Below are positions 10,809 through 19,122 of a stretch of 64,000 bases of DNA, piece by piece. Both the position numbers and the translations under genes were made by a program. The notes below the pieces were generated by a model. The model was not told where the DNA came from. It saw nothing but the letters and a program-made list of their open reading frames with translations, and made no database searches. The first letter of the stretch is position 1, and each line of letters begins with the position of its first letter. The stretch is taken from the NCBI GenBank assembly GCA_026710945.1, contig JAPOQA010000046.1, positions 62,001-126,000 on the forward strand, written 5' to 3'. Source of the DNA: Chloroflexota bacterium. Lineage in GTDB: Bacteria; Chloroflexota; UBA11872; VXOZ01.

Positions 10809-12083
10809 CTATTCTATATTCACAACGATGTCAACCGCCACCTCGTCACGCCGTGAGAGGAAGGGCGCCACCGAATCCAGCATGTCTCCTGCCTCGTCAC
10901 CGGCAAAAGCTGCTGCAACCGTAGCCAAGTTTTGCAGGGCCTCGTCGTCTCCCAAGAAAACGGTCATAGCATACACGTCATCCAGGTAGATATCAAGGCC
11001 TTGCGGGACCAGCTTGACAGTAATCGTGCTCAAGCCGCCTTCCTTCAAGCCTGCCACAGTGTCAGCCGGAAGCATACCGGGCATGCTCAGGTTCAAGCCA
11101 ATGGCTTCGAGCAGCGGCGCGGCATTTTCCAGTATGACAACCTCAGGCACCAGCAGGTCTCCGTTGGCGTTCAGGACCGTGCCGACCAACAGCGGGTATT
11201 GGTTTTCCGCAGCGCCGGGAACATCGGGAGGCTGCGATGTTTCGCCGGTGAACTTGTCTACCGCTGCCGCGCCGTCCGCCGTGGGGAAATCCACAGCAAC
11301 GGTGCCAATCATCGCCAGCGCCAGGGGCACCGCGAGATCAGGCAGGACCACGTCATAGCCAAGTCCTTTGACAAGCGAAATTACTTTATCCAATGCGGCT
11401 GCATCATAATTTACGGAAACGCGTACAGCAAAGCCGCCATTGACGTAGACGTCAATATCGCCGCCCGGCCCTTTAATGAGTTGGATGTGTTGAAGATTGG
11501 CCGTCTTTAGCGATTCGATGGCTGAGGCCGACAGGACTTCACCAATACCGATCTGGCTCAGTTCGCCTTCAGAAAGACTAAGGTTGAACTGTTGCCCGGC
11601 AAGATGCATCCCGACCTCTATGCCACTGACACTGCCGTCTTCACCGAACTGAACGGCTGCCTGGGGCAAGCCATACACTTCGATTGATTCTTCAGCGCGC
11701 TCCGGAGGTGCGCCTGGACCGGAAACCGGGGCTACCTCTGAGAGACGCGCTGGCGCAAACGGTGTAGAAAGCCCGTGGCTGACAAAGCCGGTAGAAACGA
11801 TCAAGAGCGAAGCCAGCAGGCCTACTATTCCGCCGATGATCAAGCCGACAATGCCCACGGCCTGACCTGTACCAGTACCACCACCTAGTTGGTGCCCTGC
11901 CTTGTAGCCAAGCCCCGCGCCTAAGTAGAGCAGTGAGAAGAGCAAACCAAAACTCACCAAGAACAGAATAGCTGCGAACTTAGTGAGTCCCCCACCGACT
12001 GCTACCAGCACAATTAGAGCGATGATGACAAGGACCAACCACAGAATTGGTACGGGCACCCACCAGTGTCTCCAGGTGGTCAT
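10809..12083 (-). CDS. Multi-pass membrane protein with two extracytoplasmic repeat modules, unknown family
   Basis: A 424-residue protein not recognised as a known family. Three hydrophobic segments span about residues 9-110 (PILWLVLVIIALIVLVAVGG, AAILFLVSFGLLFSLLYLGA and VGIVGLIIGGIVGLLASLLI). A Pro-rich linker and two copies of a module of about 130 residues follow. Each module has a strand with GDGS/NGDL, a helix (L..IG.....A..I..LK), a strand I..IK and a signature such as IDVYVNGGFAVRV (module 1) or LDIYLDDVYAMTV (module 2), then a helix. The ATG at 12083 has GAGAGGG close by; an ATG at 12107 is possible. The neighbouring gene encodes a paralogue with the same modules, pointing to a local duplication. 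Function unknown. Confidence 0.65.
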   Translation of the reverse strand: MTTWRHWWVPVPILWLVLVIIALIVLVAVGGGLTKFAAILFLVSFGLLFSLLYLGAGLGYKAGHQLGGGTGTGQAVGIVGLIIGGIVGLLASLLIVSTGFVSHGLSTPFAPARLSEVAPVSGPGAPPERAEESIEVYGLPQAAVQFGEDGSVSGIEVGMHLAGQQFNLSLSEGELSQIGIGEVLSASAIESLKTANLQHIQLIKGPGGDIDVYVNGGFAVRVSVNYDAAALDKVISLVKGLGYDVVLPDLAVPLALAMIGTVAVDFPTADGAAAVDKFTGETSQPPDVPGAAENQYPLLVGTVLNANGDLLVPEVVILENAAPLLEAIGLNLSMPGMLPADTVAGLKEGGLSTITVKLVPQGLDIYLDDVYAMTVFLGDDEALQNLATVAAAFAGDEAGDMLDSVAPFLSRRDEVAVDIVVNIE

Positions 12084-12165
12084 AGCCTTCCCTCTCTGTG
12101 CTTGCATGCATTCATGGTTTCGTGTCTAACACTCATGCAAAGATACTGTCTGTCTTTCTAAGCAA

Positions 12166-12263: not shown

Positions 12264-13256
12264 TTACGGCAGGCTCACCGTCAGGTCAACGTCAATGCGG
12301 TCACGCAAGTGCAGGTAATCCAGCGCCAAGCCGGCCTGCGGTGCGAACGCAGTGAGAATGCCCAGTGCGTCGGCGTCGCCAAGGCGAACGTCAGCCAGCA
12401 TCTCACCATTACTGCCCAGGGAGAGCCCGTCATTGTTGATCTTGACGTTCAACTCGCTGATGCCATTGGCCGCCATGAGGGCAACGATATCAGCTGTAAG
12501 ATTAGCAACTGTACCGAGGCCAAGCTCTGCTGCGGACATACCCAACACCGAGAGATTGCCATCAGCATCGTAACTAACGTTGGCTTTCGCCATCAACTCA
12601 ATCTCTTGTTGCTCGGTACCCACGTAGCCGGAAGGTGCGCCTTCTTCACGGACCGGGATGTCCGACTCACCAATGGTGATGACCACGTCACCGCCAGAAG
12701 CGATCACCACGGGAACCACGACGTCCTTCAAGGGGATACCGAATCCGGTGAAACCTTCCACCAGAGCCAATACCCGCTCGTAGTTCGCCGCATCCTCACC
12801 CAAGTTTACACCGATGGTGTAGGCGCCGTTGACGTAGATGTCAATCAAGCCGTCCACGCCTTTAACAATCTGTAGGTGCTCAACACCAGCGGCCGTAAGC
12901 AAGCCTAAGGTCATGGCATCGAGACCCAGCGCCGGTACAGGAATACCGAACGCGCCCAGCGCGGCTAGGTCTTTCGCTGAGATACTCACCGGCGTAGCCG
13001 TGCCGCCAATAAATACGCTAGTCGTTACCGACTGCAGCGAACCATCGTCACCAAGGGCGATGGTAATACGAGGCGGCACGATCACAACTTCCATCTGCCC
13101 CGCAGATGCGCTGGATTGAGCCGCTGAAGCGATGCGCGCGGGCAGCGATACTGCCAGCAGCGCAACTATTACCGCAATCACGAGAGCGACCTGGACAAGG
13201 GAACTGTACAGGAACGTCCTATCGAGTGATTGGGTAGGGTATCTGGTAATACGCAT
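12264..13256 (-). CDS. Single-pass membrane-anchored paralogue with two repeat modules
   Basis: A 330-residue protein with one N-terminal hydrophobic segment (LVQVALVIAVIVALLAVSLP, about residues 21-40; an uncleaved anchor or signal peptide ending near ARIASAAQ). Two modules follow, homologous to those of the next gene: module 1 has LGDDGSLQSV, AAGVEHLQIVKG and IDIYVNGAYTIGV; module 2 has YDADGNLSVLG, ANGISELNVKIN and LSLGSNGEMLADV. AGGAGGAGG lies 5 nt before the ATG, an unusually strong site. It probably heads a two-gene unit with 10809-12083. Extracytoplasmic binding or structure is inferred only. Confidence 0.7.
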   Translation of the reverse strand: MRITRYPTQSLDRTFLYSSLVQVALVIAVIVALLAVSLPARIASAAQSSASAGQMEVVIVPPRITIALGDDGSLQSVTTSVFIGGTATPVSISAKDLAALGAFGIPVPALGLDAMTLGLLTAAGVEHLQIVKGVDGLIDIYVNGAYTIGVNLGEDAANYERVLALVEGFTGFGIPLKDVVVPVVIASGGDVVITIGESDIPVREEGAPSGYVGTEQQEIELMAKANVSYDADGNLSVLGMSAAELGLGTVANLTADIVALMAANGISELNVKINNDGLSLGSNGEMLADVRLGDADALGILTAFAPQAGLALDYLHLRDRIDVDLTVSLP

Positions 13257-14005: not shown

Positions 14006-14482
14006 CTAAAAGGCGGGGCGGGTCGCCGGCATTTCGAGGACGTTCTGCGCGCGTTCGAGAAAGTCATCGTCCGTGGTGGTAATAACCCGCGTAGAGACGT
14101 TGCCGCGCGGGTTGAACTCCATCATGAGCAGCGCGCCCCGCGGCTTCAGCCCTGCCAGCAATTCGTCGAACAGTTCGTTGGTGATGCGCTCGTGGGAGAA
14201 GTACTTGTCGCGGAAGCTATTAAAGTAAAGCTTCAACGTCTTTAGGTCCACAATGCGCGCGTCGGGCACGTACACCATGGTGGCGACGGCGAAGTCCGGG
14301 TACCCGGAAACGGGGTCTTTGAACGTCAACTCCGGCAGGCGAATCTGCACGTAGTAGTCACGCTTGGGTCCAGGATTTGGGAAGTAGCGAATCTCTACGG
14401 ATTCAATCTCTTCTTCGCCATAGCGCGTCTGGCGTCTTCTCCGCTTCCCGCTCGGCCTCTTGTCTGATTCCGGATTGCTCAT
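14006..14482 (-). CDS. QueF-family (T-fold) protein lacking the catalytic cysteine
   Basis: A 158-residue homologue of QueF, the NADPH-dependent nitrile reductase that makes the queuosine precursor preQ1. Family landmarks are clear: PGYPD-type segment DPVSGYPDFAVATMVYVPD, the substrate loop LKTLKLYFNSFRD and the SHER pair matching the conserved His-Glu. The nucleophilic cysteine, in TSLCP.TG.PDFA of the Bacillus enzyme, is aspartate here (KDPVSGYPDFA, about residue 56). Without it the covalent thioimide cannot form, so nitrile reduction is doubtful. The ATG at 14482 was chosen; an upstream ATG adds 17 residues. No queC, queD or queE is nearby. It could have another pterin- or purine-related role. 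Confidence 0.8.
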   Translation of the reverse strand: MSNPESDKRPSGKRRRRQTRYGEEEIESVEIRYFPNPGPKRDYYVQIRLPELTFKDPVSGYPDFAVATMVYVPDARIVDLKTLKLYFNSFRDKYFSHERITNELFDELLAGLKPRGALLMMEFNPRGNVSTRVITTTDDDFLERAQNVLEMPATRPAF

Positions 14483-14533: not shown

Positions 14534-15150
14534 GCGTGCACATGCTGCAAAACCTATGAATATGACCGTACTATGTTGCTTTGCGAAACGTCAACTCACT
14601 ACCGGCGCGCAGGCACTAGGCCGGTGATCCTCCGCCAGCGCCGAGGGACAACCTGCACAACACGCACCGACAGGGGAGAAGATTTCCCTCTCCCCACAAA
14701 ACAAAATTGAAACCCACGTGAGCGAGCGGCAATTCTTCCACTCCCCCGGGGGAAGACCAACATGATGCCCGCGTGAGCAGGCGGCAATTCCACCTCTCCC
14801 TGGGAAGACCAACGTATTACCCGCCGGCAAGCGGGATTACTCCCTCTCCCCGGGGGAGAGGGTCGGGGTGAGGGGGAAGCGGTGCCGGCCAAGTTCAACA
14901 TCAGTTGTCTCGCACAGTTTCACAAGACCAATTAAAGGGGTGTTTTCGTTTATTTTAGTAGCGCGAGACGTGCTCCCGGCATCTGCGTGCGGCCGGTTGC
15001 AGGCGCTACATCGACGCAGGAGCCAAGCATGCATGCAAGCGCTTGCGCTGCCAAGGCGATTCTCCACGTAGGTAGGCATGGGACGGCGCGTTAGACGATA
15101 ATAGAGAAGCTCTGCATTCAGATACTGCTAACGAGAAAGGTGAGAGACTG
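14534..15150. repeat. Gap with degenerate C-rich repeat array
   Basis: No gene is seen. At about 14670-14880 three degenerate units of roughly 50-55 bp (cggcaattc at 14727 and 14782, cgggattac at 14832), each followed by a C-rich half palindrome, end in gagagggtcggggtgagggg. They match the 56-bp units at 59.6 kb. The rest, including the 250 nt before the dehydrogenase, shows nothing recognisable. Confidence 0.55.
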
Positions 15151-16140: not shown

Positions 16141-19122
16141 ATGTCGCTGAATGAAGACCGACTGCAAGAAGTCGTCGCCGAGCTTCTCAGCCGCCCAGGA
16201 CATGAGAAGGTGCGGTCGCTTGTCTATGACTTGCTGGTGCAGGGGCTTGGGGCGACCAGCGAGCAGGTTCGTTTCGAGGAGCACATCCGTGAGGTGCGCG
16301 GTCGGGCCGATGCCTTGCTTGGCCGCACCATTCTGGAATTTAAGCGAAATCTGCGGGTTGAGCTAGGGGATGCAGAGGAGCAATTAGCGCGCTATATCGG
16401 TCAACGTCAACGGGATACCGGCGAACACTACATCGGCATCACAACCGATGGAGCGGAATTCATTGCCTACGAATTGCGCGATGAAACGCTTGCTGAGCTG
16501 GCAAAGTTCACACCTACGTTAGACGATCCCGGCGCCTGTCTTGCCTGGCTGGATACCGCCGTCGCAATCCAGCCGGAGATCCCGCCCGAACCAGAGGCCG
16601 TACGCAAGGAACTGGGGCGCCAGAGCTTAGCCTATCACGTTGCCCGCACAAACCTAGGGCGGCTATGGCAGGAAGTGAAGACGACGCCGGACGTGGAACT
16701 AAAGCGCACGCTGTGGGCGGACTTACTCCAGATGGTCTACGGCGAATCGGTGGATGCTGACGACCTGTTCTTCCAGCACACTTATCTCACCGTAGTTGCC
16801 AAGACGATGGCCACGCGGGCGCTCGGCATTCCCCTGCCTCCGCCCGCCGACCTGCTTTCCGGCAAGGCCTTTCGCGACGCGAGTATCACCGGCGCGGTAG
16901 AATCGGACTTCTTCGATTGGATTCTGGATGCGCCGGAAGGAGACGCCCTCGTAAGCCGCATCGCCGCCCAAGCCGGACGCTTTCGCCTGCAGGACGTGCA
17001 GCAAGACGTCTTAAAGGAACTCTATGAATCGCTGATCGATCCGGCTCAACGCCACCAACTCGGCGAGTACTACACGCCTGACTGGCTGGCGGACCTCATG
17101 GTGCGAGAGGTGGTAACCAACCCCCTTGAGCAGCGCGTGCTCGATCCATCCTGCGGCTCCGGCACGTTTCTCTTCCACTCCGTGCGCCACTTCCTAGAGG
17201 CGGCGGACATGAACGGGTGTGACAACGCCTCCGCGCTGGCGGAGTGTACGCGCAAGGTATTGGGCGTGGATATCCACCCGGTGGCGGCGCTCATCGCCCG
17301 CGTGACCTATCTGCTGGCGTTGGGTCCGGAACGCCTGATCGGCAACCGAGGCAGTCTAGCAATCCCGGTTTACTTGGGAGATTCCTTGCAGTGGAATACT
17401 GAAGGCTTCATCACCGGACGCGACGTTGTGGTCCGAGTGCCAGACGGACCGCGCTTGCACTTTCCTGCCGCAATTGTGGCAGACGTTGCCCATTTCGATG
17501 AGATCGTCCAGAGGATGCTTGACTATAGCGAGCGCGGCGCTCCGGCAACAGACCTCCAGTCTTGGTTGCAGCGCGAGGATATTGGTGACGAATGGGGACG
17601 GGGCAGACTTGCAGAAACGTATCAGCACCTTTGTGACTTGCGGGCCGCGGGTCGCGATCACATCTGGGGCTATGTGGTGCGGAATCAGGCGCGTCCGGTG
17701 TGGCTCTCTACAAACGACCAACGGGCCGATGTCATCATTGGCAACCCTCCCTGGCTGGCCTATCGCTACATGTCACGCGCCATGCAACGCCGTTTTCGCG
17801 AGGAGAGCCAGCGCCGCAATCTCTGGTCGGGCGGCAACGTGGCCACGCACCAAGACCTCTCCGCGTATTTCTACGCTTGCTGCGCGGAACTCTATGCCAA
17901 ACCGGGCGGTACGCTGGCCTTTGTCCTGCCGTATGCGACGTTGCACCGCAAACAATACGAGGGTTTCCGCAGCGGAGTTTTTGGAGTAGGGGACGTGGTG
18001 TTTGCTCAGGCCGCAATTCGGCAAGCCTGGACGTTTGACGAGTCTGTGCAGCCGCTCTTTCCCGTGCCGTCGTGCGTGCTCATCGGGCGCGTAGGCGATA
18101 CTAGCGCGCTGCCAAAGCAAGTCGCAGCGTACACGGGCACGCTTCCCCGGCGCGACGCCACACCTGAACAGGCGGCGCAGTACCTTTCGCACGCCCCAGT
18201 ACCGTGGCCTACCGGCGGGAAACGTACCGGCGGATCGGCCTATCGGGCGAAGTTCCGCAACGGCGCTACGCTTTTCCCCCGCATGCTGTGCATTGTAGAA
18301 GAAGTCTCCTCGGTGGGTGTCTTAGGGAGTGCGGCGGACGCGCCCATCCTGCGGAGCCGTCGTACACGCCAAGAGAAAGAACCATGGAAAGGCCTACCGT
18401 CCCTTCAACAACAAATGGAGAAGCAATTCGTGCAGCCGGTCTACCTCGGTGAATCCGTTGCGCCGTATCGCCTACTTCGGCCCGTAGACGGCATCATTCC
18501 CTGGGATCCTGACGGTAAGCGTCTGCTCGATGCCCAGGCCGCGCAACAGGCCGGCTATCCCCACCTCGGCGCGTGGCTGACAGAGGCGGAACGTCTGTGG
18601 GACACCCACGGCGCGGGACGTATGTCGTTCAGCGAGCAACTGGACTACTTTGGCAAACTCAGGGCACAGTTCCCGACGCCGTCAGTGCGAGTGGTCTATG
18701 CCGCTTCCGGCAAGCTATCTGCGGCCACCATTCTCACGGATAGAGAAGGGGTTCTGGAGCATAAGTTATATTGGGCCGCCACCGGCAAACGCGAGGCGCA
18801 GTACCTGATTGCTATCATCAATAGTGAGGCCGCGCGCAGCCGTGTGGCCCACATGCAAAGCCGCGGCCAATGGGGCACGCGAGACTTCGATAAGCTCATG
18901 TTCGAGTTGCCCATTCCCCTCTTCAATGTCAAAGATCCCCTACACCGTAAACTCGCCGCGGCCGCCGCCCGCGCCGCCAAGGTCGCCGCCAACGTCCCCC
19001 TCAAAGAAGGAATGTACTTCGTCACCGCCCGCAAGCACATCCGCTCCGCTCTCAAGAACGACGGCATCGCGCAGGAAATCGAGGAGTTGGTGACAAGGTT
19101 GCTCGCTGTCCCTGAAGCTTAG
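16141..19122 (+). CDS. Type IIG-like restriction-modification enzyme (nuclease plus N6-adenine methyltransferase)
   Basis: A 993-residue single-chain restriction-modification candidate. The N-terminus carries a PD-(D/E)XK-like core: D57 in GRADALL, then E66-F-K68 in ILEFKRN. Residues 300-345 hold HQLGEYYTPDWL and the AdoMet motif DPSCGSGTF (335-343), with GVDIHP after it. The catalytic motif IV NPPW is at 535-538 after ADVIIG. The C-terminal third (about 700-990) has the look of a target-recognition region (LIAIINS..AR..V..MQSRGQWGTRDFDK). This order fits type IIG/IIL or solitary defence methyltransferases that cut and methylate with one polypeptide. No separate S or R subunit is adjacent. 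The recognition sequence is unknown. Confidence 0.85.
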   Translation: MSLNEDRLQEVVAELLSRPGHEKVRSLVYDLLVQGLGATSEQVRFEEHIREVRGRADALLGRTILEFKRNLRVELGDAEEQLARYIGQRQRDTGEHYIGITTDGAEFIAYELRDETLAELAKFTPTLDDPGACLAWLDTAVAIQPEIPPEPEAVRKELGRQSLAYHVARTNLGRLWQEVKTTPDVELKRTLWADLLQMVYGESVDADDLFFQHTYLTVVAKTMATRALGIPLPPPADLLSGKAFRDASITGAVESDFFDWILDAPEGDALVSRIAAQAGRFRLQDVQQDVLKELYESLIDPAQRHQLGEYYTPDWLADLMVREVVTNPLEQRVLDPSCGSGTFLFHSVRHFLEAADMNGCDNASALAECTRKVLGVDIHPVAALIARVTYLLALGPERLIGNRGSLAIPVYLGDSLQWNTEGFITGRDVVVRVPDGPRLHFPAAIVADVAHFDEIVQRMLDYSERGAPATDLQSWLQREDIGDEWGRGRLAETYQHLCDLRAAGRDHIWGYVVRNQARPVWLSTNDQRADVIIGNPPWLAYRYMSRAMQRRFREESQRRNLWSGGNVATHQDLSAYFYACCAELYAKPGGTLAFVLPYATLHRKQYEGFRSGVFGVGDVVFAQAAIRQAWTFDESVQPLFPVPSCVLIGRVGDTSALPKQVAAYTGTLPRRDATPEQAAQYLSHAPVPWPTGGKRTGGSAYRAKFRNGATLFPRMLCIVEEVSSVGVLGSAADAPILRSRRTRQEKEPWKGLPSLQQQMEKQFVQPVYLGESVAPYRLLRPVDGIIPWDPDGKRLLDAQAAQQAGYPHLGAWLTEAERLWDTHGAGRMSFSEQLDYFGKLRAQFPTPSVRVVYAASGKLSAATILTDREGVLEHKLYWAATGKREAQYLIAIINSEAARSRVAHMQSRGQWGTRDFDKLMFELPIPLFNVKDPLHRKLAAAAARAAKVAANVPLKEGMYFVTARKHIRSALKNDGIAQEIEELVTRLLAVPEA

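Follow-up and report, generated by a model that had tools for sequence, protein, structure and literature searches.

A conserved aspartate-form paralogue of QueF in a marine genus of Chloroflexota

The described systems closest to the protein considered here are the unimodular QueF of Bacillus (B.) subtilis, the archaeal enzyme QueF-L (archaeosine synthase) and, by analogy only, the PTPS family (COG0720), whose members are T-fold paralogues. In QueF, the active site is located between subunits, Glu97 anchors preQ0 and the covalent thioimide requires the catalytic Cys (PMC5372742). According to the published definition, a QueF carries Cys55, Asp62, Glu97 and the QueF motif, E(S/L)K(S/A)hK(L/Y)(Y/F/W), which includes Glu78, and sequences that fall short of any of these are regarded as non-QueF (PMC5372742). 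QueF-L (5jyx) is a T-fold relative in which the QueF pocket is used for a different reaction; it acts on tRNA-borne preQ0, its Cys21 is conserved (PMC5485725) and it forms a thioimide. In the PTPS-I, PTPS-II and PTPS-III subfamilies, which belong to another family and pathway than the protein described below, a change in the active-site signature marks a different reaction (PMC5041015).

The gene described here occupies positions 14006..14482 (minus strand) of the window, i.e., the whole stretch of 64,000 nucleotides that was analysed. It starts with an ATG and encodes a unimodular, cysteine-free protein of 158 residues, referred to below as QueF-D, an Asp-form QueF paralogue. The protein scores 109.5 bits with TIGR03139 (QueF-II), for which the cut-off is 86.9, and 80.9 bits with PF14489, above the curated cut-off; its score of 18.6 bits with PF01227 lies below the cut-off of 27 for FolE. 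The phmmer alignment with B. subtilis QueF (4f8b, 4fgc) is free of gaps over 103 residues (B. subtilis residues 31-133) and places Asp56 opposite the catalytic Cys, which in the literature is Cys55, one below the QueF-D numbering. The family matches and this alignment bear out the description in the earlier note of a QueF homologue in which the catalytic Cys is replaced by Asp. Another Cys in the same pocket, which according to that note would overturn the description, is ruled out within the chain because QueF-D does not contain any Cys. The Cys21 equivalent of QueF-L is likewise absent, and the sequence match to QueF-L (5jyx) is insignificant (E 0.24).

QueF-D resembles B. subtilis QueF in fold, length, colinear alignment, the equivalents of Asp62, His96 and Glu97, and most of the QueF motif, but differs in having Asp56 for Cys55, Asp79 for Glu78 and a polybasic N-terminal patch. 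Asp56 is encoded by a GAC codon at 14315..14317 (minus strand) and is Asp in all six genomes of the genus. From the alignment, the general acid (Asp63, corresponding to Asp62; codon at 14294..14296, minus strand) and the His96-Glu97 pair (His97-Glu98; codons at 14189..14194, minus strand) are kept. The codon at 14246..14248 (minus strand) specifies Asp79, also in 6/6 genomes. Among 148 homologous rows, this position is Glu in 138 and, outside the genus, Asp only in three that are very divergent. The motif reads DLKTLKLY or, in two genomes, DLRTLKLY, i.e., the equivalent of B. subtilis Lys80 (residue 81) is Lys in four genomes and Arg in the other two. The QueF motif, which had been taken as intact, is not intact because the invariant Glu78 is Asp; of the other landmarks named at the outset, His-Glu is kept, but the segment given as PGYPD reads SGYPD. 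The Glu78 to Asp exchange, the polybasic patch and the other Cys-less QueF homologues discussed below had been missed. Because QueF-D retains Asp62 and Glu97 equivalents and lacks Cys55 and Glu78, i.e., two of the four defining features, it is not filed as a preQ0 reductase, despite the equivalog model. As judged from the sequence, nitrile reduction through a thioimide would be impossible, as had been proposed, since the required Cys is absent.

The window genome also harbors a normal QueF, for which a search had been suggested. This Cys form (CPWTGLPD) is found on contig C21 (L001:1477-1923, minus strand), convergent with an adjoining gene of the Vut_1/YhhQ transporter family, and shares about 30% identity with QueF-D. 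In the Cys-QueF of the genus, the residue that precedes the anchoring Glu is Gln rather than His (VQEH), and 12 of the 148 rows have this variant. TGT and QueA are each present in six of the six genomes of the genus, QueD in none of the six, and QueC has no full-length match in the genus. Those families of the class that lack QueA (f2 and f3) also lack any QueF homologue. Neither upstream of QueF-D nor in the Cys-QueF region was a preQ1 riboswitch or other Rfam element found. This pattern of genes suggests a host of the preQ0-salvage type, in which preQ0 would be imported and then converted by the Cys-QueF. Unlike B. subtilis QueF, QueF-D would then not be needed for preQ1 synthesis.

A BLAST search of 41 genomes of the class identified QueF-D in all six genomes of the window's genus, with 85-90% identity to the window protein, while all other QueF matches carry Cys. 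Over 400 genomes of the phylum, identity to relatives outside the genus reaches about 48%. The residue at the Cys position was compared over 148 rows. In addition to the six Asp forms, these comprise 142 rows that come almost entirely from Chloroflexota (five of them are copies of the Cys-QueF of the genus itself) and otherwise from plasmid, phage and viral-contig records. The residue is Cys in 135, Asp in 6 (this genus only), Ala in 4 (family f19) and Tyr in 3 that are very divergent. A clade carrying Asp, which the earlier note had proposed to look for, exists in the six genomes of a single genus. Searching 400 Chloroflexota genomes for the DNA pattern DPx[ST]GxPDF returned these six and five non-QueF sites, and a viral scan with the Asp clade as the query gave no match. 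In a scan of named genomes the same genus alone was matched; because exact window peptides were used as queries, distant Asp forms may exist elsewhere.

The Asp56 codon is GAC in all six genomes, and a change from Cys (TGY) to GAC requires two base changes, so that a single sequencing error offers no explanation. The start ATG is conserved in the genus, the neighbouring genes are common to the five relatives compared, and an upstream block, GTTGACGTTTCGCAAAGCAACATAGTACGGTCATAT (14560..14596, minus strand), which is promoter- or operator-like, is conserved in all six genomes. Selection was compared over the 103-residue core in the five genomes from which both QueF copies were recovered. For QueF-D, the mean identity is 0.956, dN 0.026, dS 0.87 and the median dN/dS 0.027; for the Cys-QueF in the same genomes the corresponding values are 0.867, 0.074, 0.86 and 0.083. 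Purifying selection on the QueF-D core thus exceeds that on the Cys-QueF of the host about threefold, which indicates that QueF-D is functional rather than decaying and strongly suggests the new T-fold function that had been proposed. Over the first 30 residues the sequence varies (61% identity), though a K/R-rich patch, which reads KRRRRQTR in the window protein (residues 13-20; 14423..14446, minus strand), is kept in all six genomes with 6-7 Lys or Arg per eight residues, compared to 1-5 in the other homologues in the alignment.

An AlphaFold2 monomer model of QueF-D, based on 27 sequences, displays the strand and helix order of the T-fold, with a mean pLDDT of 81 and a pTM of 0.74; residues 1-17 are of low confidence. 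The best fold matches in the PDB are B. subtilis QueF (4fgc and 4f8b, E 3e-11) as well as 5udg, followed by GTP cyclohydrolase I (FolE). Because the model is a monomer, whereas the QueF site is located between subunits, the geometry of the pocket is taken from the alignment.

The reading that we favor, with a probability of roughly 0.6, is that QueF-D is a functional, neofunctionalised paralogue which does not perform nitrile reduction through a thioimide, but keeps the ligand pocket and is possibly directed to nucleic acid. QueF-D would assemble as a T-fold oligomer with a purine- or 7-deazaguanine-shaped pocket anchored by Glu98, where Asp56, together with Asp63 and His97, may play a non-covalent part, as an acid/base or by holding the ligand. 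By analogy with archaeal QueF-L, which keeps the Cys that QueF-D lacks, the conserved polybasic N-terminus probably brings the protein to nucleic acid, most likely tRNA, although such a tail could instead serve assembly or localisation. The active-site motifs that differ between PTPS subfamilies (PMC5041015) and the RNA binding of Synechocystis QueF in vivo (PMC12475003) are further precedents for this reading.

A doubtful, but serious, alternative is a pseudoenzyme, i.e., a non-catalytic RNA-binding or regulatory protein with the QueF fold, or a partner subunit that mixes with Cys-QueF and modulates the use of preQ0. Such a role would account for the change of both the catalytic and the motif residue, the polybasic tail and the retention of Cys-QueF in the same genomes, and RNA binding in vivo has been described for the Synechocystis QueF (PMC12475003). 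However, the invariance of D63, H97, E98, D56 and D79 in the genus, at a dN/dS of 0.027, exceeds the needs of a mere scaffold, and mixed rings are less likely because the two QueFs are only about 30% identical. It is unlikely that QueF-D harbors a new catalytic activity in which Asp56 is a nucleophile or metal ligand, for example in preQ0 hydrolysis (from nitrile to amide or acid) or in a cyclohydrolase-like reaction. With a conserved QueF pocket, Asp56, Asp63 and His97 would cluster; FolE ranks next among the fold matches; and 7-amido-7-deazaguanine is found in phage DNA, for which the enzyme that makes it was, in some phages, unidentified (PMC6884629). On the other hand, both the predicted metal site and the substrate are conjectural, the model is a monomer of a protein with an oligomeric active site, and a salvaging host has no obvious gain from destroying preQ0.

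We consider it very improbable that QueF-D is still a nitrile reductase that operates by another route. The lysines of the NADPH motif (K81 or R81, and K84) and Arg126 are largely retained, but the thioimide requires Cys (PMC5372742), the Glu of the QueF motif is changed as well and the host already has a Cys-QueF. A replacement for a missing step of folate or pterin biosynthesis, in the manner of PTPS-III, is hardly credible: divergence of the active site did change the pathway in PTPS subfamilies (PMC5041015) and a PTPS-family gene was not found in the genus, but all six genomes of the genus carry FolE as well as FolB, which leaves no gap at these steps. Finally, although the relatives with naming records are metagenome-assembled genomes, an assembly error or decaying pseudogene is for practical purposes refuted by the identical two-base change in six separate assemblies, the conserved start, upstream block and synteny, and the dN/dS of 0.027.

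QueF-D is flanked by the rplJ/rplL side, a D-2-hydroxyacid dehydrogenase and an N6-methylase. These were considered as functional neighbours, but general synteny is all that shows. QueF-D is known from a single genus, to which only the distant Cys-less groups can be added, so that neither co-occurrence nor gene neighbourhood gives an independent signal. Two predicted proteins of 432 and 330 residues (10809-12107 and 12264-13256 of the window, minus strand), which have no Pfam match, retain their synteny across the genus. The 993-residue protein encoded nearby at 16141-19122 (plus strand) combines N6-methylase and Eco57I-type domains; in one relative (L024) the gene for this protein is split, and in two others (L026 and L027) it was not seen at the same place.

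Other QueF homologues also lack the catalytic Cys. T4-like aquatic phage contigs (L174-L182 and L202-L222) encode a group with the signature TF[LI]G-VKDQPDFA. In the viral-contig scans, the Cys position is occupied by Gly or falls in a gap in 30 of 30 proteins of this group, which retain the equivalents of Asp62, Glu78 and Glu97. The phage proteins and QueF-D are alike in the lack of Cys at 56, Phe54, [HY]-E-R at 97-99, FNPRG and a basic residue at 132, but the former differ in having Gly or a gap at 56, a shorter loop, the motif Glu and Lys, and Tyr at 97. In trees, the phage group is sister to QueF-D (SH-aLRT 87-98), both on long branches; when the phages are removed QueF-D joins one group of QueFs from Chloroflexota, and when QueF-D is removed the phage group moves elsewhere. 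Since both branches are long and the placement shifts when either is removed, a common origin is undecided. Among 22 phage contigs, most of which may be fragments, no TGT-family gene and one strong QueC match were found. In one contig (L217:4422-6318), the genes for a bimodular Cys-QueF, a Cys-less QueF-like protein and a DUF2452 protein are adjacent to one another and close to T4-like capsid genes, and in several others (L213, L214, L216, L218 and L221) a DUF2452-like gene comes directly after the Cys-less gene.

Within the Chloroflexota, the catalytic Cys is replaced by Ala (TCLAPDSGFPDFA) in four genomes of genus f19/g27 (L107, L110, L111 and L112; G056, G188, G324 and G365), while two other genomes of that genus keep the Cys; a YhhQ-like gene lies just upstream. 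This loss looks separate because the close relatives keep the Cys. Three very divergent QueF-like proteins of family f26 (L166, L167 and L170) have lost the Cys, Asp62 and the motif residues, and only the Glu97 equivalent is kept.

In the open literature searched, with subscription journals mostly outside the search, no description of a QueF paralogue or a Cys-less QueF class was found. The published family survey discarded sequences without the defining residues (PMC5372742), and the QueF-II equivalog model labels QueF-D above cut-off as preQ1 synthase, a label that is almost certainly wrong. The host is a marine Chloroflexota genus with a normal QueF and, in addition, a strongly conserved Asp-form paralogue. 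With its nucleophile exchanged and the new residue conserved, QueF-D offers a clean and testable case of a T-fold pocket put to a different use, and it draws attention to a broader set of Cys-less QueF homologues in phages. More tentatively, such homologues in bacteria and T4-like phages may constitute an overlooked functional class, in which the QueF pocket would be used without thioimide chemistry on 7-deazaguanine or a related base, possibly within tRNA or DNA, and of which QueF-D would be a bacterial member that relies on aspartate and has acquired a new activity.
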